This document shows, in pieces, positions 334 to 30,065 of a stretch of 30,065 bases of DNA. Every line of letters starts with the position of its first letter. Position 1 is the first letter of the stretch. The stretch lies in the NCBI GenBank assembly GCA_025201705.1, contig MU616876.1:5046-35110 (forward strand). The letters run 5' to 3'. The notes under the pieces are model-generated. The model saw only the letters and a program-made list of their open reading frames with translations. It was not told the origin of the DNA and did not search any database. This DNA is from Dissophora ornata (lineage: Eukaryota; Mortierellomycota; Mortierellomycetes; Mortierellales; Mortierellaceae). Made by a program: the position numbers and the translations under genes.

Positions 334-3300
334 TTACGATGTGCTATTGTTGAGAACGCGCTCAATCACTTCGTTGATGTAGTCCTTTCGCAAAGTTAGA
401 TCGACGCCAAAGAATGCCATCAATCGTTCACGCACTAGATATTTCATGGAGGAGAGCGACGGTTAGTTTATGTGCCCACCTCCTTATAGCGTCTCGTTTT
501 GATTTGTCAAGTTTAAACGGTTACCTTGTTTCTTCGTGATGCTCATCAGATCAGCAGTAGCGAGGACATTCTGAATCTCGTTCGAGAGCTGTTCGTCAGT
601 CGGTTGGTCTGATCCAAACATTATTCCAGTTCCCATCCCTGCCACAGTTGCGATCTGGCTTAATCCGGCACTCGCAGCTGAACCCGATCTTCCATGAGAT
701 TGGAAGCCCACATCGAATGGAACACCTACAACCGAGGATCCATGTTGGGAGCCCCCCATCATTGATCGGCTGGAATTGTCCGCAAAAGGATTCCTGCCTA
801 GCGCGCCAACCAATGTGCCACCGCTGACTCCCTGGTTTACTGGATTCATTCTATGACCAGTGTTGAACGCCGCAATGGGCGGCTGCTGAGGTGATTCACC
901 GTAAGCTTGACTGTGTGCACACACAGAGTGGCTTCCTCCTGCTACGCTCGCAGTGGCTGTGCTCCGGGCGGCCATACCGACGTTGATGATGGATCGAGGC
1001 ATAGAAGAAATGGATACCCTTCTCATATTGTCTTCCTCGTATCCCAGAGATGACTTTGAGTTCTGATTGCGGTGGGAGCGATTCTGCTGATACGACTGCA
1101 GTGCAGAGTTGCTAGGATATTGTTGCATCTGCTGCTTCTGGATTATATTCGTGTCACGATAGTATTCATGTCCAACAAGCTCTTCCTGTGACCCCGAGAT
1201 CGAGTGCCCAAGTGACAATGAATGTCCGGAGCGAGTTCCTCCGCGAACAGACCCGTCGGCAACAGATCTTGGCGATCCCGGATTTCCAGGCATCTTCTTG
1301 CCTTCAGAAGTCTTGGATCGATAAGAGACTGCAGTGCCCTTGCTCTCGCGGCTGTCGACCGAATCAATCTCCCACATCTCTTGCTCATAGACACTCCACT
1401 TTTTCATCGGGATCATCTTTTCGTTAAATGGTTCCTCGTCATCTCCGATAATTACCACCTTCTTGGCATTACCGGACTCACCTACAACCATACGAGTATT
1501 TCCCCAAGAAAAGTCGTCGAAATGCCAGAAGGAATAGACGGGGATAAAGAACGAGAAAAGAGGTATAGCCAACATATAAATAAACATCCAGCCAATGTGT
1601 TGCCACTGCCGCTTGATGATGAAAATTAACGCCTGCAGACCGTAGACTGCTCCGAGAAGGATCAACGAGATCTTTGGAAGAGTTTCCATGCCTGTCGCCA
1701 CAATGACAATGAGGTAGATGAGGTAGATAACCGACGCGGGAAGGGTCAGGGTTCCAAAGAGATCCAAAAAGACAACGAAGCGCATAGAGAAGCAGCAGAA
1801 TCCGCACATCTCGGGGAGGAACACAAGCTCGGCCAGGTTGTGAATCGTAGAGTTGATCCAGCGGCGCCGCTGCGAAAGCAAAACGCTCCAGCGATCTGGG
1901 GCGACAGTCTTGCAGGTTGCATCGGGCGTGAAAGTCATCTTGTACTGGGGAAAGTGTTTCATCATGAGAGTGGTCAGGTACCGGTCCTCTCCGAGTGACA
2001 GCAAGTTCTTCTTGTGCAAGGTGTCGACAGTGTTATCAGAGTATTCCTCAATGACCTTGCTCGAGATGATAAGCGGCAGCGACTTGACCACGGTCCGGAC
2101 GCGGTACATACAAAAGCACCCTGGCAAACAAGTGACAGAACCGAAGAGCGACTCGAAAGCCTTGGCCAAATGATGCGAGATATAGTACTCGTAAACCTGG
2201 ATCATGGTCGTCCAGCTGTTCTCCTCGTTACCCAACTGTGTCTCACCACAGAGTCCGATGATCTTGCCATCGTTGATCATACAGCTCACTAGACGGTTCA
2301 GGGCATCGGGCATCACCTCTGTATCGGCATCAACCTGAAGAATATACTCATAAAAGCTTGGGTTCACACCAATGACGTTCTTCATCTGGTGGTAGATCTC
2401 GAGCTCAAGCGGACACATAGGCGAATCGAAGTGAACCTTATTCAGGAACTTCATCAAGATCACCTGCGAATCACGTTTGCCACGGTTACCAGGCCGACTG
2501 CGTTCGCTTGGCTTGCCAACCTTGGCGACGATGATATACGGGACAACGTGGCCCTCGTGCTCGTATAGACCCGAGTAGATCTTACCCATGTTGAGCTGCT
2601 TCGATCCATCTCCAATACTCTTGAATGCAAGCGGCTCTGGGTCCACATTGGGGTCGGCGCCCAAGATGTTCAGCACGATTCTGGGGGTGGGTAGGTCGTT
2701 ACCACTGCCGATAATCATACCGTCGGCAATGATGAAGAGTAACTTGCGCTTGTCATCGTACCTCAATGCTGTGATTGAATCGATTGTCTTTCGCAGAGAA
2801 TCCTCGTCCTCGGTATAACAAGGAATCTGGATGATCACAAACTTGTCATGCTCCTCAGGGATGCGTACCGAGCCCAGTTGCAGAGCAGCCAAGAACTTGA
2901 TGGCGATGACAGAGACCAAGACAATAGATGTGCTCAACAGCATATAGTTCGTGAACTGACACTGGAACGACTTGCGGTAATCGACCTTTCCGACATAAAA
3001 AACCTGGTTTAGGCAACTCTTAGTGAGTGCGCGAGTTTGGGCATCAAGCGGAAGCTTCTTCCAGATAGCAGTAATGTCCTCGCCATTGTTATTGAAGGCC
3101 ATGTCCTCGACCGACTTGTCCAAAAAGTGCGCAGATGGCACACCCGCACCTAGTGGACCCGTGTTTCCTGGTGCATGGATCGTGTTGTAGTAGCTGGTCA
3201 AATCGTAGACACCGTTCTCCAGCACAAACCACCTCCTGTCCGTATTTGCCTGGATGTCCGCCATCTCAAAGGCCAACTCGCCTTTTTTCATAGGTAGGAG

Positions 3301-6300
3301 ACGAAGAAGGGCTACTCTCCAATACCACTGCCCTTGGTTGTTCTGTGGAGCCCAACCAATGGTTGTGTCTGAGGTCGGTGGTCCGTGGACCTGCGCACCA
3401 ATGATGGTGTTATTCGCGACCATATTCAAATTAGGACTCGTCACCAGCCCATAGCATGCAATGTTCAATTGCAGTGGGAAGTAGTCGGTGACATCTGTGC
3501 CAGCAAATGGCAACATGTAAGCCATGTCCGACGGGTACGATGCATGTCCGTTCGAGTGGTCGCTTTTCGCAAACTTGGTGATGTCGTAGACCTTTCCTCG
3601 GAGCGAGACGAAAAAGTCATCTGGAGCCGCATGGTACCCGACCTCCTTAGAGGAGAATAAGTTCTCGGCCCCTGGGCACATGATTTTACCGAAGCCGGTG
3701 ATTACAAAAATGATAGCTGCAGACATGAAGAAGATGATACAGCAAAGCGCGACCTTTTCACGCCACGCCATACGAACATCTTCGCGCTTCATCTTGCCGC
3801 AGCTCGAGAGCATGAACGAGGGAATCCACCAAGTCATGCACCAGGTAAAGAAAACCCAAAGCTTGCGAGCGCGCGTTGTTGGCACCACCTCGACCGGTTC
3901 TGCCTGCTGCAGCTTTTCAATGGAAGCACCTTGGCCTTTAACACCATGAAATCCGTCACCTCGTCCGCCTCTTCCCCCGCCGGCAGTGTCGCCGTTGACT
4001 CTCTTCCCGGAGGCCCTTGAAAGCCCTCGCCTTAGGGCACTCATGGCGGGCAGTGTTGCCATACCGTAGTCGCTCATAAGGTCATCCTCCTTTTCACCAG
4101 AGTCCGAAAAAATATCATCGTCGAGACCCTCTGCTTCCGAGACTGCATCATCGCTGGCTCCCTTACCCATCGCCAAGGTTAGTAATCTGTCCGTACTAGA
4201 AAAGGCCGAGTTGAGTTTGTTGTGGTCCCCGCCCAGCAGATCATCCCCGTCTGCGCCATCGATCGTGGCCAGCTCCCCAGGTCCTGTAAGACCTCTAGCC
4301 CTGGCCTTGGCAAGCTCTGCCTGCGCAACGGCTGAAGCCTGGGACTTCTTCTCCTGCAGGCGCTCTTCCTTCTCAATCGCACGCAAGTCGTCCTCAAGTT
4401 CCTTCCAGACTTCCTCTGCTAGCCACACAGAAGTGTTACCGAGCGCAAACTTAGGGCCTGCCTGGCCATCAGGAGCGCTCCAACCTCGACCAGGTGCATT
4501 TGCTACATCCAGACACTGAGATTTCTCAGTCGTTGTGCTTCTATCCAAGTTGAGGCTCGAAACCAGGACCGTCCGCCCATAACGAGCGAGGAATTCTCCG
4601 AATGAGTACGACATCATGTACTCAGTTCTCTTGCGGTTTGCAATATCTGGTAGGAGGAATGCGTTCACCTGTGTCCGCAGCTTCTTAGTATCCACAGCAA
4701 TGCTTGACTGCACATCGTTGGGCTTCAGGCAGATCATGTGCCAAAGTGTCGTCTCGTCCATAGTTTGGACTAGTTCATGCAAGGTCGTGAACACTTGCGA
4801 TAGTACCGTACTCACAGACAAGGAATCTTCCTCCATCTGCCGTGCTTGCATCATGGCATTCAAAACACTCTGCTGTTGCTGTTGCTGCTGGTTCTCAGCA
4901 GTCTTGGCTCCATGCTGGCTGCGACGAGAAGCCAAATAAGAGCCAGCAGCGCCCCCGTGACGTGAAGGCTGTCGCTTAGGTCTGGTCTGAAGCTGGGCCT
5001 TGACAATCGTCTTTTCGAACTTTGGATGTCTCTCAACAGAGATAGCACCAGCAGAGTCGGTCGAGAAGAGATCGACGATAAACTTGTTAGCCGAATTTCT
5101 GAGCAGGACAATAAAATCGGGCGAGATCTGGTCTAGATTTTTTTCCAGAAAGTCGTCGACGGAATACTCGACCTTGCCAGTGAAGTGCTGAACCGCAAAA
5201 TAGTTGGACGACGTTCGATTCGTGGTAAATATCGACTGAGCTTGTGTGTCACCCCGAAGCTGTAGTGTGGCCTTGTGGAGACAGTCGGCGTCAGTTGCGG
5301 ATCCTTGGCTGTAGAGTGTGCTGGAGTCATCCATGATACGAATGAGTCCACCGCCGACGACTGAGTTTGAGGATTGAATCTGCTCCTTTTGCTGTGCTTG
5401 GTTGCGGATCGAATAAGGATTGGGTTTAGTTGAGCTGCTATTACTCTGTAAAGCCGACGGCTTTGTCGACAAAGGGATCGGCTGGTCGTCAATGTACTGT
5501 TTCCCCACGAGGAACTGCAAGCAACTGTCATCAAACACAGAATGTGAAGGTGTGTTTGGCTGGCTATTCGAAGTGTTGTGAGTATTGACTCGTTGCATCG
5601 GACCTGGTAATAGGATGCCATCTTGTATTTGCAGTTTGTTGAAACCAGCAGTGTCGTCCAACATCCTTCTACCAACGAACCCATGAAGGAGCTCGTTCGC
5701 AAAATTGACTGAGAACTGCTCAAAATTCGCAAGGTGGATTGAAGATGAACCGGACGCTTCAGACAGCCCAATTTGGTCCAGAATGGCTACGAAGTTAGCT
5801 GGATCAGAGTGACAAAGTGTTCTGTTGATTTGTTCGACCAGGTACCCGAAAAGAGCCATGTAGAGTGCTCGCGCTAAGGAGTCTCGGTGGGCAGATGAAC
5901 CTTGGCTATTCAGCACCACCGTGCAAAGATCTCGGCGGATCAGCTTGGATTTATATGTCAGGGCTAACAGTAACTTGTCTGCGGAGTGGCGAAAGGTGTT
6001 GGTAAATATTTTTAGTTAGAACGTGAAAGCCTTCGAGTGATCCGTGTTCAAATGTCTTGGGTTACTCACCACTGGGAACACCGAGGATGTCAGCAATAAA
6101 GTCCAAGACCTCTGGATTTCTGACAACAGCAGCTTCTTGGAGTGCGCTTTGCTTACTAGCAGAGACGGGGTCCGTGAATTGCAAATTGCCAAGATGCAAT
6201 ATTGCAGCCAGAAGTCTCCAGACATGCTGCGTTTGTCGCGGTCTGAATCCACAAGCTGCCATTGCACTCTTCAAATTTTCAAATCCAAGGTTGTCATCCA

Positions 6301-7488
6301 TACCCATCCCTGCCGAAACCGAGGCAGATGCAGCATTGCCAAATGCACCGCCAGTTGTGCTACTGATACCAGTACCCATGCCGACAGACCCATAGCCAGC
6401 ATGTCCATGTCCGCCGAGAGTATCCTGACGGGCCAAGCGGGACTGACTAATGTAGGTGAATGTCTGCTGTAGTTGAAGCTGAGACTTTTCCTGATCCGAG
6501 AACGAGCTCTGTCCGGCTTGGAGGAGATAGTAAAAGACGTGGAACGTCCGCTCATCCTGAGGAATCTTTGTCAATCTGGAAGTGTTCAAGAGATAACACA
6601 AAGTCTTTCCGCCGAGGACGCGACCTCGTTCGTTGAACTGTCGCATGCGAGCAGCACACAGTGAAAGGCACACAAATATAAGTAAGCCAGATATTTCCGT
6701 TGAACTGAGATTGACAATGGAAATTTTCTTCTCTATTTTTTTACCTGGATCTCGAGAAACTTTGAAAACATGCTCGCGTTGTTGTTCTCTCTGGTGTAGC
6801 AACACCCGAACGCGTCTAGGACCTGCTGGGCCTGCTGTAACTGAGTTGCTACACGGGCTTCTTTTTTGGTGTGCACAGCCAATCGACACAGCTGGGACAT
6901 TAGATGCGAAGCACCTACCGTCTTGCCTGAACCAGAAACGCCACTGCGGGAAATAGTGCGTTAATATAAACAGCGTCTGCCATGGTAACAATGAATAGAT
7001 TTCGGTTTCACTTGCCTCATTACGACAGTTTGATCTTGGCCAGTTCGTCTCAAATGGAGATAAATCTTTCCAGCAAGTTCATACGGATGCGGTGCTATGC
7101 TGCTCGACCCATTCAGACTGTTGTGTTGACTATGCTGGTCCCCACTCTTGTCCTTTGGTTTGTGTGAGCGACTCTTTTGAAACGGATCTAATGGTGACAA
7201 GGTTGTCGGTGATAGATTGTGCTGTTGTTGTTGGTCCTCCAGAGCGCTGCCAGAGGAAGACTCGACTCCAATGTTCCGATAGCACCAATCGGCATACTGC
7301 TCTGCATTGGCGTCATTGAGGATGGAGAGAACCTCATACGGGTTGACGGCGACTAACGTCGAGGCATTGATTCGAGTATAGGGCAGTTTTTGTTTCCAGC
7401 GTGAGGAAATGTTGTGAACAATAGCATCGTCTGAGGTCGAGCCAAGGTGTGTGAGGTCTGGGGAGGTATAATCGGATTGGAACGGCAT
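334..7488 (-). CDS. Chitin synthase with N-terminal myosin-like motor domain (class V/VII type)
   Basis: Exons (complement): 7488-7016, 6943-6745, 6637-6070, 5978-525, 434-334; 2264 aa. The protein makes chitin from UDP-GlcNAc at the plasma membrane of growing tips. The myosin-like head spans residues 1 to about 880, with P-loop GVSGSGKT at 159-166 and motor motifs such as FNERGR and SFGEFLARYG. Two membrane segments follow (about 1116-1180), then a cytochrome b5-like domain (about 1197-1250). The glycosyltransferase domain has a membrane segment near 1425-1446, VDADTEV near 1628, GEDR near 1740 and QRRRW at 1783-1787. More membrane segments and WGNTR follow. After a low-complexity tail comes a DEK_C domain (about 2207-2259) split by the last intron; the 32-residue final exon completes it. 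The first intron must use a GC donor to give the P-loop. The start at 7488 is the first ATG of the open first exon. The family is clear; the exact class (V or VII) is not settled. Confidence 0.93.
435..524 (-). other. Last chitin synthase intron; hides the true C-terminus
   Basis: Donor CAAG|GTAACC and acceptor ATCTAG|TGCGTG on the minus strand. Reading through it stops at 484 and leaves a half DEK_C domain. Splicing (phase 1) adds a 101-nt exon encoding VRERLMAFFGVDLTLRKDYI and onwards, which completes the domain as in other myosin-chitin synthases, and ends at TAA 334-336. Confidence 0.88.
6944..7015 (-). other. GC-AG intron in the chitin synthase, just before the P-loop
   Basis: The minus strand reads ATGAG|GCAAGTG at the donor and CCCGCAG|TGGCG at the acceptor. 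Joining AG with T gives serine, followed directly by GVSGSGKT. A GT lies 4 bases further in (CAA|GTGAAA), but using it shifts the frame and destroys the P-loop, so GC is the productive donor. The motif GCAAGT is the usual strong GC-donor consensus. Confidence 0.85.
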
Positions 7489-7693
7489 GGCTGGCAGACA
7501 GTGAAGAATGTAGTATTAAGCGAGGAATAAAAACTACAAAGACGAAGATAATGAGGCTTTGAAGGAGTAAGAGAGCTACGAGATTTAAGCTTCTATTGCT
7601 CAATGATTCTGAGGATGCCTACTAAGGACCCGCTAGTTATTCGCATCCAGAGTTCTTATCTCAAAAGGAAACGGGGGCGGAAAATAAAGTACC

Positions 7694-13186: not shown

Positions 13187-15857
13187 CTATCCTTGATTAG
13201 GGTCTTGAAGATGGCCCTGGTTCTGCTGCTGCTGCTGTTGCTGCTGCTGTTGCTGTTGCTGCTGCTGTTGATGCTGTTGCTGGAGCTGATGCAATTGCTG
13301 TTGCTGCTGTTGAATCTGCTGCAGTTGAAGACGTTGTTGCTGTTGCATATTCAGTACGGGCGATCCAAACGATGCTCCTTGAAGGTTTGGCATCATGGTA
13401 GGAGTTCCAGCAGTAACCTGACCAGGCATCCCCATGGATTGGATCGGGCTATTGTTTGCATTAACAACTAAGAGAGACGACATATAGACAAAATAGACAT
13501 TTTTTTTTTTTTTAAAAAAGAGATGTCATTTTGAGCACCCAAACGAAATATTGCAAGTTCGAGAAAAAAAATAATCGTACCTTGTCCTGCTTGCGACGAT
13601 GCTTGTTGGAAAGCAAGCTGTTGTTGTTGCTGTTGTTGTTGATGTTGCTGCTGTTGTAAGATCCTATTCTGTTGAATCAGCTGCGCCTGCAACAAATACT
13701 GCTGTTGTTGCTGCTGTTGCGGAGTAATCATCCCAGGTTGATTCGACGGGGACATCATATTTGGGGAATTGACACCTGCCTGCTGTTGTTGTTGCTGCTG
13801 CTGCTGTTGCTGCTGTTGTTGCATAGCCCCAGCGAAACCACCGACACCGACATTCCCAACCGTCAAGTTTGGGATCGGTACCTTCAAGAACAACAATCCG
13901 ATCAGATTGAACCGTTTCTCATTATAGATCAACACCATACCAGCCTGAGGACCTATCTGTGGGAAACGAACAGTGGCGACAACTTTACGAATACCCATGT
14001 TCTTGGTCAGGGTCTCAAAGATGGATGAATTCTCGAGAGAGTTGCCGGCTGAGGGATAGATGTGGATAAAAGGAAGGCTATGTTCTTCGGCAAGCTTTTG
14101 GAGCTCAGAGGTCTTGGCCGGCATGTGACCCGAGATGACAAGTTTCTTGGGCCAGAGCGAAAACGAGCTGGCAGGAAAAAAAAAAAAAAAAAAAGTGAGG
14201 TGGGAAACGAAGGAATAGAACGGGTGAGTACTTTTCATTAGTCCTAGCAGCATCGATATGTCCCCCCCCCCAAACTCCTGGGTGAATGTGTATATGCACA
14301 GATTACGTACTATTCCTCTTCCAGGGATTTGTCAATCTTCTTGCCCGCAAACGTCGATACCACACAGACACATTCCCGAGGAGGCTGTCCATTCGCTCCG
14401 TTGATCATCCATGCGATTTCGCCCGACCAAACAGGGTCGCTGCCCAGCCCGTTAATACGTTGCTGCTCCTGAGCCTGGATCAAAAGCCGGTGCTGCAAAG
14501 TCTGTAACTGTTGCTGAGGAGTTGGCTGCTGCTGTTGCGGTTGTGGTTGCTGCGGTTGCTGTTGTTGCTGCTGTTGCTGCTGCTGCAAAGGTTGTGGCAA
14601 TTGCTGGTGCTGTTGTTGCCCATCCTGAACTGCGGTCTGTCCCTGAGGATGATTCTGCTGCTGCTGCTGCTGTTGTTGTTGTTGTTGCTGTTGTTGTTGC
14701 TGCTGCTGTTGTTGCTGTTGTTGTTGGAGCTGAAGTCTTTGCTGCTGCAAAAGCATGCTAAGCTGCTGCTGTAACTGAGGAGACTGTTGCTGTTGTTGAA
14801 TCTGCTGTTGAATCTGCTGTTGACGTTGTGCAGTCAAGAGCTGTACCAACTGCTGCTGCTGTTGTGGGGTTAATGCGTTAGCATTTGCACGTTGCTGCAA
14901 CACCCGGAGCATATTCAGCTGAGGTTGCGTCAATTGCGTAGTGGGAAGCTGCTGACCCGCGGCAAGATTCGTCTGTAGTGGTTGGGGTGGGCGCTGCTGC
15001 TGCTGATCTTGTTGTTGTTGTTGTTGCTGTGCTTGTGCCTGTGCCTGTGCCTGTGCTTGTGCTTGTGCCTGCTGCTGCTGTTGCTGGACCGCAGCAGTGA
15101 CAATAGGAGATCCTGCTGCAATGTTTGCCGCTGGTGAACCCACGTTTCGCTGTAAGGGTGAGCCCACAGCCGCAGTTTTGGCTGTCAAGGGCGACCCCAT
15201 ACCTGGAGCAACACCTGTCTGTTGAGGTTGCTGTTGACCTTGGTTCGGCTGTTGTTGCTGCTGCTGTTGCTGGGCCTGCAATTGAGGCTGCAGAGGCTGT
15301 GCCTTGAGATGTTGTTGCTGCTGCTGATACAGATTATACTCCTGACCCGTAGCAAGAGGTTGCTGCGGTTTGACAGGGCTGGCAATCACGCCACCCATGC
15401 CTGCAGAACTTGCAGGTGTCTGATTCGGGAATGCCAGCTGCGATTGTTGCTGTTGGGCTTGTTGCTGAGCCTGCTGAGCCTGTTGTTGTTGCTGCAATAG
15501 GAACTGCCGCTGTAGCTGCTGTTGTTGAACTGCTACTCGCTGAGCCTGAGCCTGAGCCTGGGCCTGGGCCTGAGCCTGAGCCTGAGCCTGAGCCTGGGCC
15601 TGAGCCTGAGCTTGGGCCTGAGCCTGAGCCTGGGCCTGGGCTTGAGCTTGAGCCTGAGCTGCCTGCTGAGCTGCTGCCTGCTGAGCTGCAGCCTGTTGTA
15701 CTGCAGCCTGTTGTGCTGCCAATTGAGCTGCTTGCTGTTTAATAAGTGGCGACATTTGCGGTTGCTGCTGCTGTTGCTGTGTCTGCGATTGTTGTTGTTG
15801 TTGTTGCGTCTGTTGCTGTTGTTGTTGTGTCTGTGGTTGTTGCTGTAGTTGTTGCTG

Positions 15858-15899
<42 letters not shown>

Positions 15900-17976
15900 T
15901 TGCTGCTGCTGTGCCTGTCGCAACTGGGCCAGTTGTTGTTGTTGGCCCCGGATTGCTTGTAACTGCTGTGGCGTGAACTGCTGCTGCTGAGGATGCATTT
16001 GCGGAGTAGCTGTTAGGGACTGGGTCTGAACAGCATGCTGCTGCTGCTGCTGCGGTTGTTGCTGAGGCGTCGATACAAGTTGCGGGGTGTTATTGCTATT
16101 GTTGTTGTTGCCGTTGCTGCTCTTCGCCTGAGCTGCCGCCACGGCACGAGCAGCTTTCGTCATCGCGGGGCTTGTCATAATCGTCGGCGCCGGTGCACCA
16201 ACTGCTGCAGCAGTAGTCATAGTGTCCCCAGAGACTTCAGGGGTACCCATGGACGCCACTGAATCGACTCCACCGCCTGGCTTTGTCCCTTGATCCATCT
16301 GCAATCCCTTCTTAGTGTCCTCTGGGGAGGGCACAAGTGCTGATGGCGTGTGAGTGCCCTCTTCGATTTTGGTCCGTTTTACTGATGAATTGCCAGACAT
16401 CTTTGGAGAACTTCCCATAGCAGCGGGTGAGCTGGCAGAGGTTTCCCGTTTGAGATCCATAGAATCTGAAGCCCCGTTCATGCTTGGTCGCTTGGTTGCG
16501 GTTCCTGCACCAAGGGTATGGCTATCTGAGATCAAGGGCGATGAGCCTGCTGGCGTTGTTGTTGTAACCGTGACGGTAGTAGAAGGAGGAGGTGGTGGTG
16601 CAGAGGGTAATTGGAATCCTGCAAGTTTGACAACATGGTTGGCCGAGGGCTTGGGTGTTGCGTCGATGATATCGATAGTCTGCTGGTTCACCTAGTGTTG
16701 TGTGTGTGCATATATGCGGGCTCCATGTTAGGATCACATATCATCATGGGCGGTTGATATCATAGCCCATCAGAGGAGAGGCATCGCCTGGCTTATGATC
16801 CTTGTTACCTTCACAACCAAGTCGACGAGCTCGCTATGTTCTGATGGAGAGACCAAAGATAAGGATATAGAGTGCTGAAAGAGAGAGAGAGAGAGAGAGA
16901 GGACATTCGTTAGCATCGGTTCTCGTGAACAGGGGCATCTCACTAGCAATGGGCAGGGATTACTACCTTGCGCAACTCTTGGGCGGCGTCTTCATAGTTG
17001 AAACCATCGTATCTTTCAGTGGAGTTGCACCGGCATCCTGTCAAGTGCGGGTCGCTGTCAGCAACAAGAATAAGATGTCGCTCCGGTTCCGAGCTGCCGT
17101 CGCTCACCCGAAGTTCGTCATACTGGTCAAACATCTATCCACATTAGACACGGGTCAGTCAATCCGTTGCTTTGCTTTGCTTTGCTTCGCAAATACTCCT
17201 GAGAGGCCTTACCTCCAAGGCTGATACTAATCCCTCAGTGACAGCATTACGAAAGACGCCTCCGTATTCAAACTTGATTTGTCGCAGCTCGCGGATGAAA
17301 GAGACAGGGTCAATGGTGAAGTAACGCGTGTCAAGAGTCGAAGTCGAGCTTGGCTGATAGTCGCCATAGATGGCCAATCCACACCGCACTAGAGGCTAAC
17401 GACCAAGAAAACAGAAAGGATGTCTAGGATTGTCAGAACCTTTACATCCGCCATGCAATGGCTATAGCGGCTTTCAGGCAGCTCCGCTCTCTATCGGTGT
17501 TCTTACCGCATCCTTGGGTCGGGGCTGGTTTGTTTCCGGATCAATTGGAGGTGAACGAAAGTGTCTAACCGTCGCGCCGCATGAGATGAGTGTACAAAAG
17601 CAGTGTCAGCATCAACTGTAGAACATATCCATGTCAATGGAGCTATCACAGCAAACGCGTTTTTTTCATCCAAGCATTTTTTGTGCATGCTTTCTAATCC
17701 ATCGATCAATCACACCCTTGCTGGGAGGAGGGGTTATTTTTACCGAACGATAGGCTCGATATACGAGATAAGAAGCGACTCGAAACTGGAACCCATCCTT
17801 GCCGAGTTCTCGATAGCAAAGACACACAGGATCTCGTGTCGCTGGCTGGGAGGGCCTGGTGTGGAGACGCTGTGGAGAGGCATGGGTGAGGCACTGGCCC
17901 CTGGCGAGGACAGGCCAAACGCGGGCGACGCGGCTGTGGGCCCCAAAGAGGGCGTGTGCGCATTAGCCGCCAGCAT
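13187..17976 (-). CDS. MED25: Mediator complex subunit 25 (vWA + Q-rich + PTOV/ACID domain)
   Basis: Exons (complement): 17976-17744, 17564-17507, 17395-17213, 17134-16967, 16874-16809, 16691-14311, 14167-13581, 13467-13187; 1318 aa. Nuclear Mediator subunit that links transcription activators to RNA polymerase II. An N-terminal von Willebrand A domain (about 45-235) has the MED25 layout: FAIENSARMGSSFESLLISY, then CGLAIYGDYQ, IKFEYGGVFRNAVTEGL, RHLILVADSDPH and HSISLSLVSPSEHSELVDL. The vWA domain tethers MED25 to Mediator in other species. Residues about 240-980 are low-complexity, with long Gln runs and a run of about 20 Ala-Gln pairs. The PTOV (ACID) activator-binding domain lies at about 983-1130 (VWSGEIAWM ... 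FLKVPIPN). A second Q-rich tail ends the protein. The ATG at 17976 opens exon 1. All eight exons join in phase. The gene is absent from budding yeast but known in animals and plants. Confidence 0.9.
13867..14450 (-). repeat. PTOV domain copy A (in MED25), partner of an inverted duplication
   Basis: 147 codons (GLGSDPVWSGEIAWM to VPIPN) interrupted by one phase-2 intron at 14168-14310. The other copy is at 26192-26775 on the opposite strand. Both spans are 584 bp, align without gaps at the protein level (105 of 147 identical by hand count), and have the intron at the same codon. The minus strand carries a T19 run (A 14176-14194) just before the acceptor. Confidence 0.9.
15537..15662 (-). repeat. 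Hexanucleotide repeat coding for about 20 Ala-Gln pairs in MED25
   Basis: On the minus strand the units are GCTCAG or GCCCAG, interspersed in an irregular order, giving an alternating Ala-Gln stretch. A shorter Ala-Gln block occurs at about 15027-15072. Flanking sequence is CAG/CAA glutamine repeat. Such arrays are expected to vary in length between strains. Confidence 0.9.
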
Positions 17977-20332: not shown

Positions 20333-21879
20333 ATGAAGAAAAAAGTACGCGCACCATGCTCCCTGGTTTTCGCATGCGCTGCCAACACAATGAGCGACAT
20401 CCACTGACGAGAAGCCTCTTGTCATGTCTCTTGTCATGTCCGACCCAAACCAACACAACCCTACCCTAGGTGCTTTTGATGGGAAAGAGTGGCTCGGGCA
20501 AGACCTCCATGCGCTCCATCATTTTCTCCAACTATATTGCCAGAGATACGCGCCGTCTTGGAGCCACAAGTAACGTGCCTTTTTGCTGGAAACTAACGAC
20601 GCTTCCAACCCAAAACCACCAGACCTAATTGGGGTATCTTTGTCATGCTGCTTCACTCTCGCAATAGTCGACGTTGAACATTCGCATGTCCGCTTCCTTG
20701 GAAACTTGGTGCTCAATCTGTGGGACTGTGGAGGGTACGTTTTCTGTTCTTACCGTTGAGGCATCTAGGAACACACAAAAAGAAAACTCGTTTCAAAAGA
20801 CGAGAGCGAGCAAAACGTTGACCCATGCATTGATGTTTCTATTGGATGTAGACAAGAGGCGTTCATGGAAAACTACTTTGCTTCACAGCGCGACCACATC
20901 TTCAAGAATGTCGAGGTTTTGATCTACGTGTTTGATGTCGAGAGTCGGGATGTGGAAAAGGACATGCACTACTATCAGTCGTGCCTCGAGGCCATTATGA
21001 CAAACTCCAAGGACGCAAAGATCTTTTGTTTAATCCACAAGATGGATCTTGTTCAGGAGGACCAGCGAGACAAGATTTACAATGAGCGTGTGCTCGAGCT
21101 TCAGACGAGGTCCCTGCCTCTGCAGGTGATACCCTTCCGGACATCGATCTGGGACGAAACACTGTACAAGGTAAGAAGGGGAAACACGACATGCAGAACA
21201 CAGATGGTAGACCGTGCCTCGTAAAGCTAACTCTAGTCCACTGGTCTTCTGCCCTCACTCGTTTGCATCCCCAATAGGCTTGGTCATCGATCGTTTACTC
21301 TCTCATCCCCAACGTCCAGCTCCTGGAGAGCCATCTGGATAACTTTTGCAAGATTTGCGAGGCTGATGAGATTGTGCTGTTTGAGCGGATGACGTTCTTG
21401 GTCATTGCACACTCGACCAGGGTCGATAACGGGGATGTGCATCGTTTTGAAAAGATTAGTAACATTATCAAGCAGTTCAAGCTATCTTGCTCGTAAGTGT
21501 CGCGGTCTTTGTTCGCTAACAATGTTGACTCTTCATGTGTCGGGTGACTCACTGGTTCAATCTACTCTTGGATGCAGCAGGACACAGGGCAGTTTCCAGA
21601 GTATGGAAGTACGACACTCCAACTTTGCAGGATTCATCGACTACCTGACAGGCAACACATATGTGATGGTGATCATGTCGGATCCGACTATCCGTAAGTT
21701 ATTTAGTTGGAAAATGCCTCGGGAGTCGCTGTGCAACAATGTTCGCGTCTTGCTGCGAGCATGTCGCTGAACATTTGTTCCTTTTCCTCAACTTTATAGA
21801 ATCCGCGGCGACCCTTATGAATATTGGCATTGCTAGGAAGCACTTTGAAAAGCTGGAGGGAGCTCAGTTTTCAAAGTAG
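20333..21879 (+). CDS. GTR1: Rag-family GTPase Gtr1/RagA
   Basis: Exons 20333-20344, 20470-20569, 20668-20734, 20852-21170, 21278-21492, 21578-21693, 21800-21879; 302 aa, close to the usual 310. Gtr1 pairs with Gtr2 at the vacuole/lysosome membrane and signals amino-acid supply to TORC1. The protein starts [20 protein letters not shown], with the G1 loop GKSGSGKT at about 9-16. Switch [16 protein letters not shown]3 [14 protein letters not shown] and G4 [12 protein letters not shown] follow, then the roadblock-like C-terminal half ([11 protein letters not shown] ... [18 protein letters not shown] ... [23 protein letters not shown]). The first exon is only 12 nt (Met-Lys-Lys-Lys). Exon 6 has a NAGNAG acceptor (GCAGCAG), so it may start at 21578 or 21581, adding or dropping one residue. 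Every GTPase motif is intact. Confidence 0.96.
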
Positions 21880-22434: not shown

Positions 22435-25400
22435 ATGACCTCTCGACATAGCCGAATGCCGAGCGATGCCGACCGCGAAACATTCGCTCAGGCCCCGAGT
22501 GGTGGTCTGACGCGTTCCACGCCTATCATGCCCCTGGGCATGCCTCCCATGACGAAGGAGGCCAAAGAGTCCAAAGAGCAAGCCCAGGCCTGGGACGCTT
22601 CCCTCAACAGAATATTTCAAACGATGCATGGCGAGGACACGGCAAAGTACCTCACCTACTTCAAAGCCAGGCTCGAGGTAGAGGAGACTTATGTCCGCAG
22701 CCTCGAAAAACTTGTCGCTTCTGCAAAAGGTGGATCCAGAAACTCGATTGTTAGCCACAGAGACAGTAGTTACAGCACTGGAGCCAATAATGTCAATGCC
22801 GCGGAAAAAGGCCAGGGCGGAAATGGAACTTCTGCAGACCCCGAGGAGATCCCGACCACGCTCCAAATGGCCTACGACGCAATGTTGGATACAACCCTGC
22901 AACTGTACAAGCGTCGTCGCCCATTCCTTCGACTCTTGAAAACCTTGACTGGAGCTCTTGCGAGTTTAAAGGTAAAGGATAACCAGTTGCCAATGTTTTT
23001 TTTACTGCTCTCTCATTTCTCTCATGCCTGTTGATATGGGAAGGATCTGTAATTGCTCTGCCAAGGGGCCCTGGGAATATTTTTGTGATATGTGGTACTG
23101 ACGGGCCATTCTTATTTCATTTGCTGCACCTGCAGGAAGCCCACGAGAAGCAGCGCAAGGGCCAGAAGGAGACCGTCAGGCCTGTCTTCCAGCTGTATGC
23201 GGAGACCAGACTTTCCACAGTTCCAAAGGTAATTGGGACTTTATTGCATTTGCGTGTTCAATCTCGTCGAGGCCGCGACGTCGGCACTTGTTCAGTGAAT
23301 TGACTAGCTGGTTGTTATTTCCAAAACACTCTCAGCTCAAGAGGGCGTACGAACAACGGTGCCGCGAGGTTGAACAGGTGCTCGCCATTGAGGACAGCGA
23401 CCATCTTCCTGTGCGCGAGAGACTCAAGAATCTTGCCAGTTCTACTGGTGCGGCAGGAAGACTTGTCAAGTGCAAGCGCGACATGGAGGAAGCGGGTAGG
23501 AACTTGAACATTCTAGGCCGTGGGATGACCTTGCGCTGCGTAGTATACGCCCCCCTCATTGGATTCGTCGATTGTTGACCTATAAATATATCTATTGTTG
23601 ACGCTTTTTTATTTTCAACGTTATCGATACACAGATAGCGAGTACAAGACGGCTGTGCAGTCCCTCGAGGTGTACCGTGTGCAACGCGAACGTTACTTTG
23701 AGTCTTCGTTCCAGGTATATGCAGAGAGATGGGCATTACGCCTAACGACAACAGTGTGCCTTGCTTTTTTCTTTGCCACCACCCTGTGTCACAATGGCAT
23801 CGACTTATTTTTAGTCTAACATCGCCGAGGCTGATCTGTATCATACTACCAGATTATGCAAAACATGATCAAGGAGCGCGAGACAACGTCCCGCCAGTGT
23901 CTCGAGGCGTACGTCAACGGGGAGCGCGAATTGATCTCGGGCGCCAAGGAGGATATCGACCGCTTTTCGATCGTCGTCGACTGCGTCAAACCCGCTAGCG
24001 ACATGGACCAGATTAGCATGACATTTACAAAGGATATCCATTCACATCCCAAGCCTGTGCCCTACGAGAACTATTATCAAAAGCCCATCCCAGGTAACGT
24101 CTTCAATATATGCTGCGATTCCTTGGCCATCGCGTCCGTATTCGCCAGTCGTGCGCCTTCTTTATCAAAACCACGAGCTGCACATACTGACGACCGTTTC
24201 CTTGATGCTCCAATTGTAGAGGGTGTTTTCGGAGCAGGCCTGTCAGACTATGTCAGGAAGTATAGGCATCCCATCCCTTTGGTGATTGTCAAATGTTGTG
24301 ATGCAATCGACCGTGCAGGTGATGTGCCTCTCCTATGTCTGTCATGTAGTTTAGCAGGCTTTTTTGCAGATCGAAATCAACGTGCTCATGCTCTGTTCTC
24401 CATCCTGCCACACTACCAGGATTACGCCGAGAGGGTATCTATCGTGTCTCTGGACGTCACGCTCTGATCATGAGCCTTAAGAAGCAGTTTGAAATCAACG
24501 AGGAAGCTGTCGATCTGACCGACCCCTCGTTTAGTGAAGATGCTGCCTCCATCGCAGCGGTCCTGAAAATTTATCTTCGCGAGCTTCCAGAACCTTTGTT
24601 CCCGTTCTCGCTTAACGAACGTATCGCCTACTCTGGTAAGGCCCCCACCTCCTCTCTGTTGTTGTTGTTTTTTTTTTCCGCTGTTGCAAGTTTTTACCCA
24701 CCGCGACCAATGTGCTTATCAAGCTGGGACAATGTTAAAATAGGCAACCGTGATACCAACATTAGGCTGCATGAACTCAAAGGTCGACTCAAGCGTCTTC
24801 CAGACTGCAACATTGACGCGCTACAGTTTTTGATCCAACATTTACGCAGGTACTATAGCCTCTCCCCCTTGTCATTAGTGCCCATGATAGTATTAGACGA
24901 CAGAGAATTGATATTCAAGACTTGTGTGTCTTCTTTCCTCTATATTAGGGTATACCAACACGTGGATGATAACAAGATGACACTAGACAATATCTCCATG
25001 ATCTTTACTCCAGCGATCTTCCACGACTTTAACAGCGCTTTGGTTGGAGGTGGTCAACAGGGTGGGAGTAATACTTCCACAGCACTTTCTTTCGCGTCCC
25101 AAACAACATCGGCGACCTCCCCTCCTGCAGCAAGCTCGCCTAGTTTTAACACAGCATCCTGGTCAGGACATTCGCCGCCATCCTCGGATCACTACTCGGC
25201 TGTTCAATCAAAGCAGCAGCAGCAGCAGCAGCAACCACTACACCAGTTACCACCAATCACGCCCCAAAACTTGAGTCTTGGTTTCAGCAACTCGGCTTCG
25301 TCATCTCCTATGCTGACGCATGACCTTCCCCCTGGTCTGATGTCATATACTCCTCCTCCAAGCGGTCCCAATAATGGCATGTCATACACTCCTCCTCCAA

Positions 25401-25951
25401 GCGGTTCCATTGCTGCTGGTATGGCAACAGTTGTTCCTCACCCCGGCGCTCACCCTAATATAAACCAGAGTGTCAACGCCCATTCCGCCCCGAGCACTAT
25501 GAGTTCTACGTCGTCCATGTCCACTTCACCAACACAACCATCATTTGCTCCGCCCACAAACACGGTTTCTGCGGCAGCCAGTTGGAGCAATGACCTGGTT
25601 TTGGCAGACCTTATCCTCAACAGTGATACGATCTTTAACGTCTTGCCAAATCTACCCGCCCGTACCAATTCGATGATGGCGATGGATGAAAGATTGTTGG
25701 CTTCGTTAGCGAATACCTCTATGGGGAATAACGGGAATAACAATGGCAGCAGCGCGACGAGACCGTTTGATAACTCAAGGAAATCATCTAGCTCGTCTCT
25801 AGTCGAGGGGACTACTCCATTGCGACCAAGGATGGATAGCTTGGGGCCAAACTATTCGAATCGCATTACGACATTGACTTCGACTGCTCCCTCTATACCC
25901 ATTGTTGCCGGAAGGGATGTGGATCAACAGTACCAGAACCCGCAACAGCAA

Positions 25952-26048
<97 letters not shown>

Positions 26049-26424
26049 CGTACTTGCCACCACCACAGCCGCAGCAGCCAAGTTATCCTCAGGGGCCAAC
26101 GACAGGACAGGAAGGACAGCAGCGGCCACAGAATCTACAACAGCAACAACAGCTCCTGTATCAGACTGCGCAGCAGCAGCAGCGCAGTTATGGACTGAGC
26201 AACGATGCTATCTGGTCGGGCGAGATATCATGGATGATCAACGTGGCGAGTGGACAACCACCCCGAGAATGCATCTGTGTGCTGTCTATGTTTGCGGGCA
26301 AGAAGATCGACAAGTCCTTGGATGAGGAATTGTACGTTACTTTTCAAGGGTATATCTATCAAAGGAGCACACTCAATCCACCATGATGCAGAGAGTACTC
26401 ACAACCTGTCTCTCTTTTTTTCTT

Positions 26425-26455
<31 letters not shown>

Positions 26456-26793
26456 TTCTCTTGTTCATATGCAGTTCACTTTCGCTATGGCCCAAGAAAC
26501 TCATGATCACAGGCCACATGCCCGCCAGGACCTCCGAACTTCAAAAACTCGCCGAAACCCACAATCTTCCTTTCGTCCGCATCTTCCCCTCTCCGGGAAG
26601 TTCTGTCGAGAACAGTGAACTCCATGATGCCCTTACAAGGAACCTGAACAATCATAAAATGGTGGCCACCATTCGGTTCCCACAGGTCGGTCCACAGGCC
26701 GGGTTGGTGTTGATCTATAACGAGAAACAACACGATTTGATCGGGATGTTGTTCTTGAAGGTTCCGATCCCCAACTTTTCGCAAGCATTGTGA
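22435..26793 (+). CDS. F-BAR + RhoGAP protein fused to a MED25-type PTOV domain
   Basis: Exons 22435-22971, 23136-23228, 23336-23495, 23635-23714, 23853-24093, 24220-24318, 24420-24635, 24744-24849, 24949-26331, 26475-26793; 1077 aa. The F-BAR membrane-bending domain is at about 38-330 (AWDASLNRIFQTMHGEDTAKYL, CKRDMEEADSEYKTAVQ). The RhoGAP domain is at about 371-540, with arginine finger in EGIYRVSG (about 411) and LKIYLRELPEPLFPF; it should switch off a Rho GTPase. This pair resembles yeast Rgd1. A Ser/Thr/Pro-rich tail follows, then poly-Q (about 842-877), then PTOV (about 926-1071), which ends the protein. Exon 9 runs without a stop from the end of RhoGAP into PTOV, so the fusion does not depend on splice choice. 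The last intron matches the MED25 PTOV intron. The usual RhoGAP FGPNL/FGPTL reads FTPAIF here. ATG 22435 was chosen because the next upstream ATG only adds pyrimidine-tract peptide. Confidence 0.88.
25945..26048 (+). repeat. CAG/CAA repeat (poly-Gln) between RhoGAP tail and PTOV
   Basis: A near-pure glutamine tract of mixed CAG and CAA codons, in frame within exon 9 of the fusion gene. Shorter CAG runs occur at about 25213-25232 and 26137-26182. It sits where the Rho-regulator part gives way to the MED25-like part, and MED25 has an equivalent tract in the same place, so it is the likely junction. Confidence 0.92.
26192..26775 (+). repeat. PTOV domain copy B (in the RhoGAP fusion)
   Basis: Codons from GLSNDAIWSGEISWM to VPIPN, with a phase-2 intron at 26332-26474. 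It is the inverted partner of 13867-14450. The introns are both 143 bp but their sequences have largely diverged. Copy B has a CT microsatellite where copy A has a T run; both keep an AGTACTCAC string in mid-intron. After VPIPN the two proteins diverge: copy B ends 6 residues later, whereas MED25 continues into a Q-rich tail. Confidence 0.9.
26413..26450. repeat. CT microsatellite in the last intron of the fusion gene
   Basis: Alternating CT on the plus strand, serving as a long pyrimidine tract about 25 bp before the acceptor ATGCAG at 26474. Confidence 0.85.

Positions 26794-27017: not shown

Positions 27018-30065
<3,048 letters not shown>

Follow-up and report, generated by a model that had tools for sequence, protein, structure and literature searches.

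Proteins of the yeast Rgd1 type combine an N-terminal F-BAR domain, a central RhoGAP domain with an arginine finger and a low-complexity tail. Rgd1 is a GTPase-activating protein (GAP) for Rho3 and Rho4 located at the bud site and the tip of small buds (PMC4393305), and its binding to liposomes is improved by phosphatidylinositol bisphosphate (PIP2) through the F-BAR domain (PMC5487894). The PTOV domain, also called ACID, is part of the Mediator protein MED25, which a review of Mediator disorder assigns mostly to metazoans and plants, although it gives values for fungi too (PMC4770211). PTOV domains also work outside Mediator: human PTOV1, a MED25-related protein with two tandem PTOV domains (there named A and B), can shuttle between nucleus and cytoplasm and works with RACK1 and Flotillin-1 in the cytoplasm (PMC5355357). 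Here we analyse a window of 30,065 nucleotides from the fungus Dissophora ornata (Mortierellaceae; GenBank assembly GCA_025201705.1, contig MU616876.1, forward-strand positions 5,046 to 35,110), in which one predicted gene reads as a chimera of an F-BAR-RhoGAP protein and a MED25-type PTOV domain, with the likely donor MED25 gene in the same window (Table 1). We estimate the probability at about 0.57 that a MED25-derived PTOV domain was joined to an F-BAR-RhoGAP protein and probably gives this predicted cortical Rho regulator a new module for docking a partner.

The ten exons of the chimeric gene (hereafter the fusion) were rebuilt from splice sites; spliced, they give an open frame without a stop, encoding 1,077 amino acids (aa), and all nine introns are GT-AG introns of 99–164 bp. 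A first-pass annotation, made from the letters of the window alone, had proposed a single gene over the same interval with the domains F-BAR, RhoGAP and MED25-type PTOV, and both proposals are borne out by the reconstructed frame, the domain matches given below and a database protein with the same join. As that annotation had described, exon 9 is a single open stretch that starts in the last part of RhoGAP, crosses the tail and a polyglutamine tract (35 residues by our count) and enters PTOV in one frame. However, it holds only the first third of the domain (from 26192), and the remainder lies in exon 10. ‘Complete’ was also too strong a word for this PTOV domain, given that the sub-threshold PF11232 match covers positions 3–134 of 154 and the alignment with the human domain ends before the third helix. 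Reading through intron 9 meets a stop at 26386, so that the whole PTOV domain of the fusion needs splicing; a long pyrimidine tract precedes exon 10.

The first half of the fusion resembles Rgd1. Residues 161–365 match the solved F-BAR structure of PSTPIP1 (E 2.7e-7), the Pfam FCH match reaches 22.2 bits and stays below the cut-off of 27.8, and the structure model of the database protein has long helices in this part, with blocks of predicted local distance difference test (pLDDT) scores up to 90. The RhoGAP domain is matched by PF00620 at residues 390–537 (E 1e-37) and by many solved structures, yeast Rgd1 among them. It keeps R412 (in EGIYRVSG), which we take to be the arginine finger, together with K453 and N525, presumably the usual RhoGAP residues, and the residues matching these three are invariant among 11 relatives. 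An orthologue search, in which 7,993 candidates sharing most words were scored and 99 proteins returned, gave 30 Mortierellaceae orthologues by source names (P0001–P0030, some partial). P0001 is the D. ornata protein discussed below, and the other 29 are 53–79% identical to the fusion over the aligned part. The RhoGAP-type tail of the fusion carries the motif AASWSNDLVLADLILN, found as AASWxNDxVLxDLILN in 28 of these 29. Near the C-terminus a TPPSPS/RSRSN-like motif is present in 16 of the 29, including P0027 from D. globulifera, and missing in 13. The same motif was not found in the last 320 residues of the fusion, where PTOV stands in its place.

The C-terminal part resembles MED25. The MED25 gene in the window, which the text of the first-pass annotation had not mentioned, has seven introns, all GT-AG, and its product matches the VWA domain (PF11265, E 1.3e-27) and, below the Pfam cut-off, PTOV (PF11232, E 2.8e-4). 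With a VWA domain, a very long middle rich in Q and QA, and PTOV, it is a full MED25 gene in an early-diverging fungus. In a DNA alignment, part of this gene is 68% identical to the end of the fusion (601 of 879 columns), beginning at the glutamine tract, including the intron and reaching as far as the last strand. Over the coding parts of PTOV, the MED25 copy (copy A) and the fusion copy (copy B) are identical at 334 of 441 nucleotides and 105 of 147 aa (71%), and both are interrupted in the same codon phase by an intron of 143 bp with a GTACGT donor. This identity and the intron shared with a VWA-bearing gene identify copy B as MED25-type. Scanned on its own, the C-terminal piece of the fusion matches PF11232 with E 2.9e-5, but the domain is not listed when the whole 1,077-aa protein is scanned. 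The linker before PTOV (PQGPTTGQEGQQ) resembles PQGQTAVQDGQQQ of MED25: only 4 of 1,000 shuffled linkers score as high, and 8 of 1,000 when its last 12 residues are removed, whereas none of 26 RhoGAP tails clearly beats shuffles with it (best 8 of 200). The donor segment therefore likely starts in or just after the glutamine tract. At the other end, homology stops at KVPIPN; the fusion ends five residues later (PIPNFSQAL), whereas MED25 continues. Copy B is inverted relative to the donor segment and about 11 kb away; the interval holds the remainder of MED25 and two likely genes. From these sequence comparisons, the RhoGAP gene likely received an inverted copy of a MED25 stretch of about 0.8 kb, comprising polyglutamine and PTOV with its intron. 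Unlike MED25, the fusion has no VWA domain (no PF11265 in a Pfam scan), and its single PTOV domain is faster-evolving and joined to RhoGAP.

The join appears to be confined to D. ornata within the protein searches made. A PTOV profile run over 104 fetched proteins found only P0001 and five MED25 pieces, hence one of the 30 Mortierellaceae orthologues; PTOV is absent from the other 29 models, although a model truncated ahead of its PTOV exon would escape this count. Searches with the PTOV domain of the fusion returned P0001 alone among proteins of 592–1,885 aa (140 candidates) and the five MED25 pieces among those of 189–602 aa (154 candidates). Within the genome, a protein search places PTOV at two sites, both in the window; the count comes from that search, as a genome search with Pfam PF11232 was silent, for its controls too. 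The MED25-type VWA was found once, in the MED25 gene. An F-BAR of the fusion type and a close RhoGAP were also each found once, and the best of the 16 stretches matched elsewhere belongs to another RhoGAP, 39% identical. The fusion is therefore no spare copy. No relic of the old RhoGAP C-terminus was found near the gene by motif, nor in the genome by a search that had no positive control. Two genome pattern matches to that end were rejected as lying in unrelated reading frames. Overall, a lineage-specific chimeric gene is the best reading of the PTOV-bearing F-BAR-RhoGAP.

The best database match to the fusion is P0001, the hypothetical protein BGZ58_005461 of D. ornata (1,009 aa), annotated with the same F-BAR-RhoGAP-PTOV join on a separate contig of 31,073 bp. 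The contig of the window has at least 35,110 bp and belongs to a 31.4-Mb assembly of 968 contigs, so these are two different assemblies. P0001 is identical to the fusion except for a start 7 residues later, the 33 missing residues of exon 6, a glutamine tract of 7 residues where the fusion has 35, and a single R-to-W change in PTOV. Exon 6 opens the RhoGAP part and has 99 bp, so that P0001 skips it in frame, either as an annotation slip or as an alternative exon. The glutamine tract thus differs strongly in length between assemblies, and this bears on whether two loci were wrongly joined through their CAG/CAA repeats. The junction is a 105-bp repeat of glutamine codons, a classic place for misjoins. 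The tract of P0001, however, is only about 21 bp, a length that any read covers, so that a misjoin at the repeat is unlikely, and the genome searches found no second VWA or F-BAR left over, nor, in a search that had no positive control, a relic of the usual RhoGAP end. An assembly artefact is therefore extremely improbable.

The same comparison bears on whether PTOV is translated with RhoGAP at all. A separate transcript could begin downstream of RhoGAP and ahead of PTOV, or retention of intron 9 could end translation when only one third of PTOV has been made; the intronic stop and the exon 6 skip in the P0001 annotation fit such a view. We consider it very unlikely, since the RhoGAP tail motif and frame continue into PTOV without a stop, both assemblies keep the frame despite a difference of 28 glutamine codons, and the pyrimidine tract stands ahead of exon 10.

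The two PTOV copies have been separate for some time, and have evolved at different rates. MED25 outgroups are few and fragmentary, namely P0100 (Mortierella sp. GBA39), P0101 (D. globulifera) and P0102–P0104, which lack the first part of the domain. At five sites A and B agree against both P0100 and P0101, and in an unrooted tree they are split from the other MED25s with a Shimodaira–Hasegawa-like approximate likelihood ratio (SH-aLRT) of 88.7 and an ultrafast bootstrap (UFBoot) of 84. They are likely sisters, provided that the root does not lie on the branch of B, and it probably does not because the relatives lack the fusion. A four-taxon approximately unbiased (AU) test rejects the grouping of A with P0100 (p 0.032). 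Taken together, these trees favour, without proving, a PTOV duplication in the D. ornata line. By the NG86 method the nonsynonymous distance (Ka) between A and B is 0.167 and the synonymous distance (Ks) 1.04 (bootstrap range 0.70–1.74). Ka/Ks is 0.16 (0.087–0.262; 1,999 of 2,000 replicates usable). This ratio is pairwise and not split by branch; roughly apportioned between the branches, it would come to about 0.3 for B. With Ks near 1 and such a ratio the frame has been constrained, given that an unconstrained one would have decayed. Private changes number 5 in A against 33 in B with P0100 as outgroup (chi2 20.6) and 5 against 30 with P0101 (chi2 17.9), and the branch lengths are 0.04 for A and 0.30 for B. 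Copy B has thus changed about six times more than copy A, which means that it is either less constrained or has adapted to something new; the net charge of PTOV went from +2 in A to 0 in B.

Such numbers could also describe a tolerated passenger, an in-frame fusion of low cost that is kept foldable and does nothing specific. The roughly sixfold excess of private changes in B, the limitation to one species in the data and the lack of focus of the changes on contact-equivalent positions (see below) speak for it. Against it, the frame, splice sites and most residues have been kept over a Ks of about 1, and 27 of the 42 A–B differences are conservative by BLOSUM62. On balance we hold a mere passenger to be rather doubtful.

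Another question is whether copy B still binds what MED25 binds. Residues of human MED25 ACID linked to activation domains are K413, P414, I449, Q451, V534, I537 and R538 in one source (PMC7564715) and T424, Q451, Q456, L458, C497, H499 and L525 in another (PMC4038590). When the human MED25 sequence from the Protein Data Bank (PDB) was aligned to the fungal PTOV profile, the alignment was weak but preserved the order of WSG..W, WP.KL, FP and the final strands, and 8 of the 13 contact residues had an aligned position. At the equivalents of T424, Q456, L458, C497 and H499 the two copies carry the same residue, whereas they differ at those of I449, Q451 and L525 (V, S and L in A; M, T and M in B), a mixed picture that points neither to loss nor to retention of activator binding. 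The loop aligned with K518–I521 reads KRFN in A and KQHD in B, and for both copies the alignment stops before the third helix with V534, I537 and R538. We had considered that B changed mainly at activator contacts, and rejected this idea on the ratio of 3 in 8 against 30 in 106 aligned columns.

The first-pass annotation had suggested that the fusion may recruit transcription factors, or proteins that bind MED25, to the cortex, or tie Rho signalling to transcription. PTOV would then keep MED25's activator binding, and either hold transcription factors at the cortex or carry RhoGAP into the nucleus. Copy B does belong to the family of MED25 ACID, five of the eight alignable contact-equivalent positions are the same in A and B, and human PTOV1 can shuttle between nucleus and cytoplasm (PMC5355357). 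However, on a weak alignment, B differs from A at the other three positions and in the K518–I521 loop and the third helix is unaligned in both copies, and nothing puts the fusion protein near a transcription factor; we hold this reading to be unlikely. A more specific version, in which the captured Mediator domain keeps activators, or regulators that resemble activation domains, at the membrane and frees or hides them with Rho signalling, is improbable; if true, a single protein would wire Rho GTPases to transcription, and a glutamine repeat would have allowed it to arise in one step.

We instead tentatively favour a new cytoplasmic partner over the activators of MED25, given the predicted cytoplasmic location of the protein and the fast evolution of copy B. 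In the mechanism that we propose, about 0.8 kb of MED25 would have been duplicated in inverted orientation, landed in or near a CAG/CAA tract of the RhoGAP tail and replaced the old C-terminus (TPPSPSS...RSRSNxDL-like in many relatives); an in-frame join would have been easy because glutamine codons lay on both sides. By analogy with Rgd1, the F-BAR part would bring the protein to the PIP2-rich plasma membrane and RhoGAP would switch off a Rho3/Rho4-like GTPase, while PTOV may hold a short peptide of a partner at the membrane. A parallel is human PTOV1, also a MED25-related PTOV protein outside Mediator and partly cytoplasmic, although with two PTOV domains in tandem where the fusion has one (PMC5355357). 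The two proteins probably arose independently. PTOV1 is not known to have RhoGAP or F-BAR.

Several results weigh against the favoured reading. With 24.4 bits, the Pfam match of PTOV narrowly misses the cut-off of 25, and the fungal profile finds human MED25 ACID with E 0.005 and a probability of only 7%. In PDB sequence searches, neither copy A nor the profile gave a match. The first-pass annotation had recommended structure prediction of copy B against the ACID fold; this was of limited use, as both AlphaFold models are poor in PTOV (whole-model mean pLDDT 42.5 and 45.5), and a Foldseek search with these low-confidence models returned no match at E 0.001 or below, so that the models speak neither for nor against a seven-stranded barrel with three helices. 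The AU test does not reject a grouping of A with P0101 from D. globulifera (p 0.121), on a tree that is unrooted. Relaxed constraint would likewise account for the faster evolution of B, and differences at 3 of 8 contact-equivalent positions, compared with 30 of 106 columns overall, do not single out the activator-binding face and give no sequence proof of a shift of partner. Finally, since the P0001 model skips exon 6, its annotation is no proof of a transcript.

Chimeric genes are a known kind. Here a single window of 30 kb contains the likely donor, the recipient and the junction, and the donor survives for comparison. The locus suggests how coding tracts of repeated glutamine codons can serve as in-frame joints, through which an interaction domain from the nucleus is transferred to a signalling protein of the cytoplasm, and the slow and fast PTOV copies of one genome offer a natural test of what the domain keeps or loses outside Mediator. 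In the openly licensed literature we found no paper on PTOV together with RhoGAP and none on MED25 in Mucoromycota, and among the matches listed none by title on a RhoGAP-Mediator fusion in fungi.

Table 1 Features of the fusion and MED25 genes, in positions of the window.
Feature	Position	Strand	Basis or detail
Fusion gene (F-BAR, RhoGAP, Ser/Thr/Pro tail, polyglutamine, PTOV)	22435–26793	+	10 predicted exons, 1,077 aa
Fusion exons 1–5	22435–22971, 23136–23228, 23336–23495, 23635–23714, 23853–24093	+	predicted from splice sites
Fusion exons 6–10	24220–24318, 24420–24635, 24744–24849, 24949–26331, 26475–26793	+	predicted from splice sites
F-BAR part (exons 1–5)	22435–24093	+	weak FCH match, PSTPIP1 F-BAR match, long helices in P0001 model
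RhoGAP domain (exons 6–8, start of exon 9)	24220–25027	+	PF00620, residues 390–537
Ser/Thr/Pro tail, RhoGAP type, in frame	25028–25942	+	motif AASWSNDLVLADLILN common to relatives
Glutamine tract, likely junction zone	25943–26047	+	35 CAG/CAA codons (21 CAG, 14 CAA)
Linker before PTOV (PQGPTTGQEGQQ...), likely of MED25 origin	26087–26191	+	aligns with MED25 NHPQGQTAVQDGQQQ
PTOV copy B	26192–26775	+	coding 26192–26331 and 26475–26775, PF11232
Intron of PTOV copy B, 143 bp	26332–26474	+	
MED25 gene, likely donor (VWA, polyglutamine, PTOV copy A)	13187–17976	-	8 exons, 1,318 aa
MED25 part aligned with 25946–26777 of the fusion	13865–14726	-	DNA alignment

The PTOV queries found no full-length Mortierellaceae MED25 model among proteins of 592–1,885 aa, only pieces of 191–341 aa, and MED25 is perhaps often mis-annotated in this family. 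The PTOV fold is SPOC/Ku-like; in line with this, the Ku70/Ku80 beta-barrel model is also matched by two of the seven PTOV rows in the alignment (best E 0.00089). An exon of a Gtr1/RagA-type GTPase (20769–21224, plus strand) separates MED25 from the fusion, and pieces of an SNF1/AMPK alpha-type kinase, with the adenylate sensor and a UBA/autoinhibitory part (27018–29031, minus strand), converge on the end of the fusion. At the start of the window, a chitin synthase with a myosin motor part, cytochrome b5 and DEK_C occupies 484–7515 on the minus strand (domains scanned over 484–6015, the stretch up to 7515 judged by eye), presumably of class V/VII.

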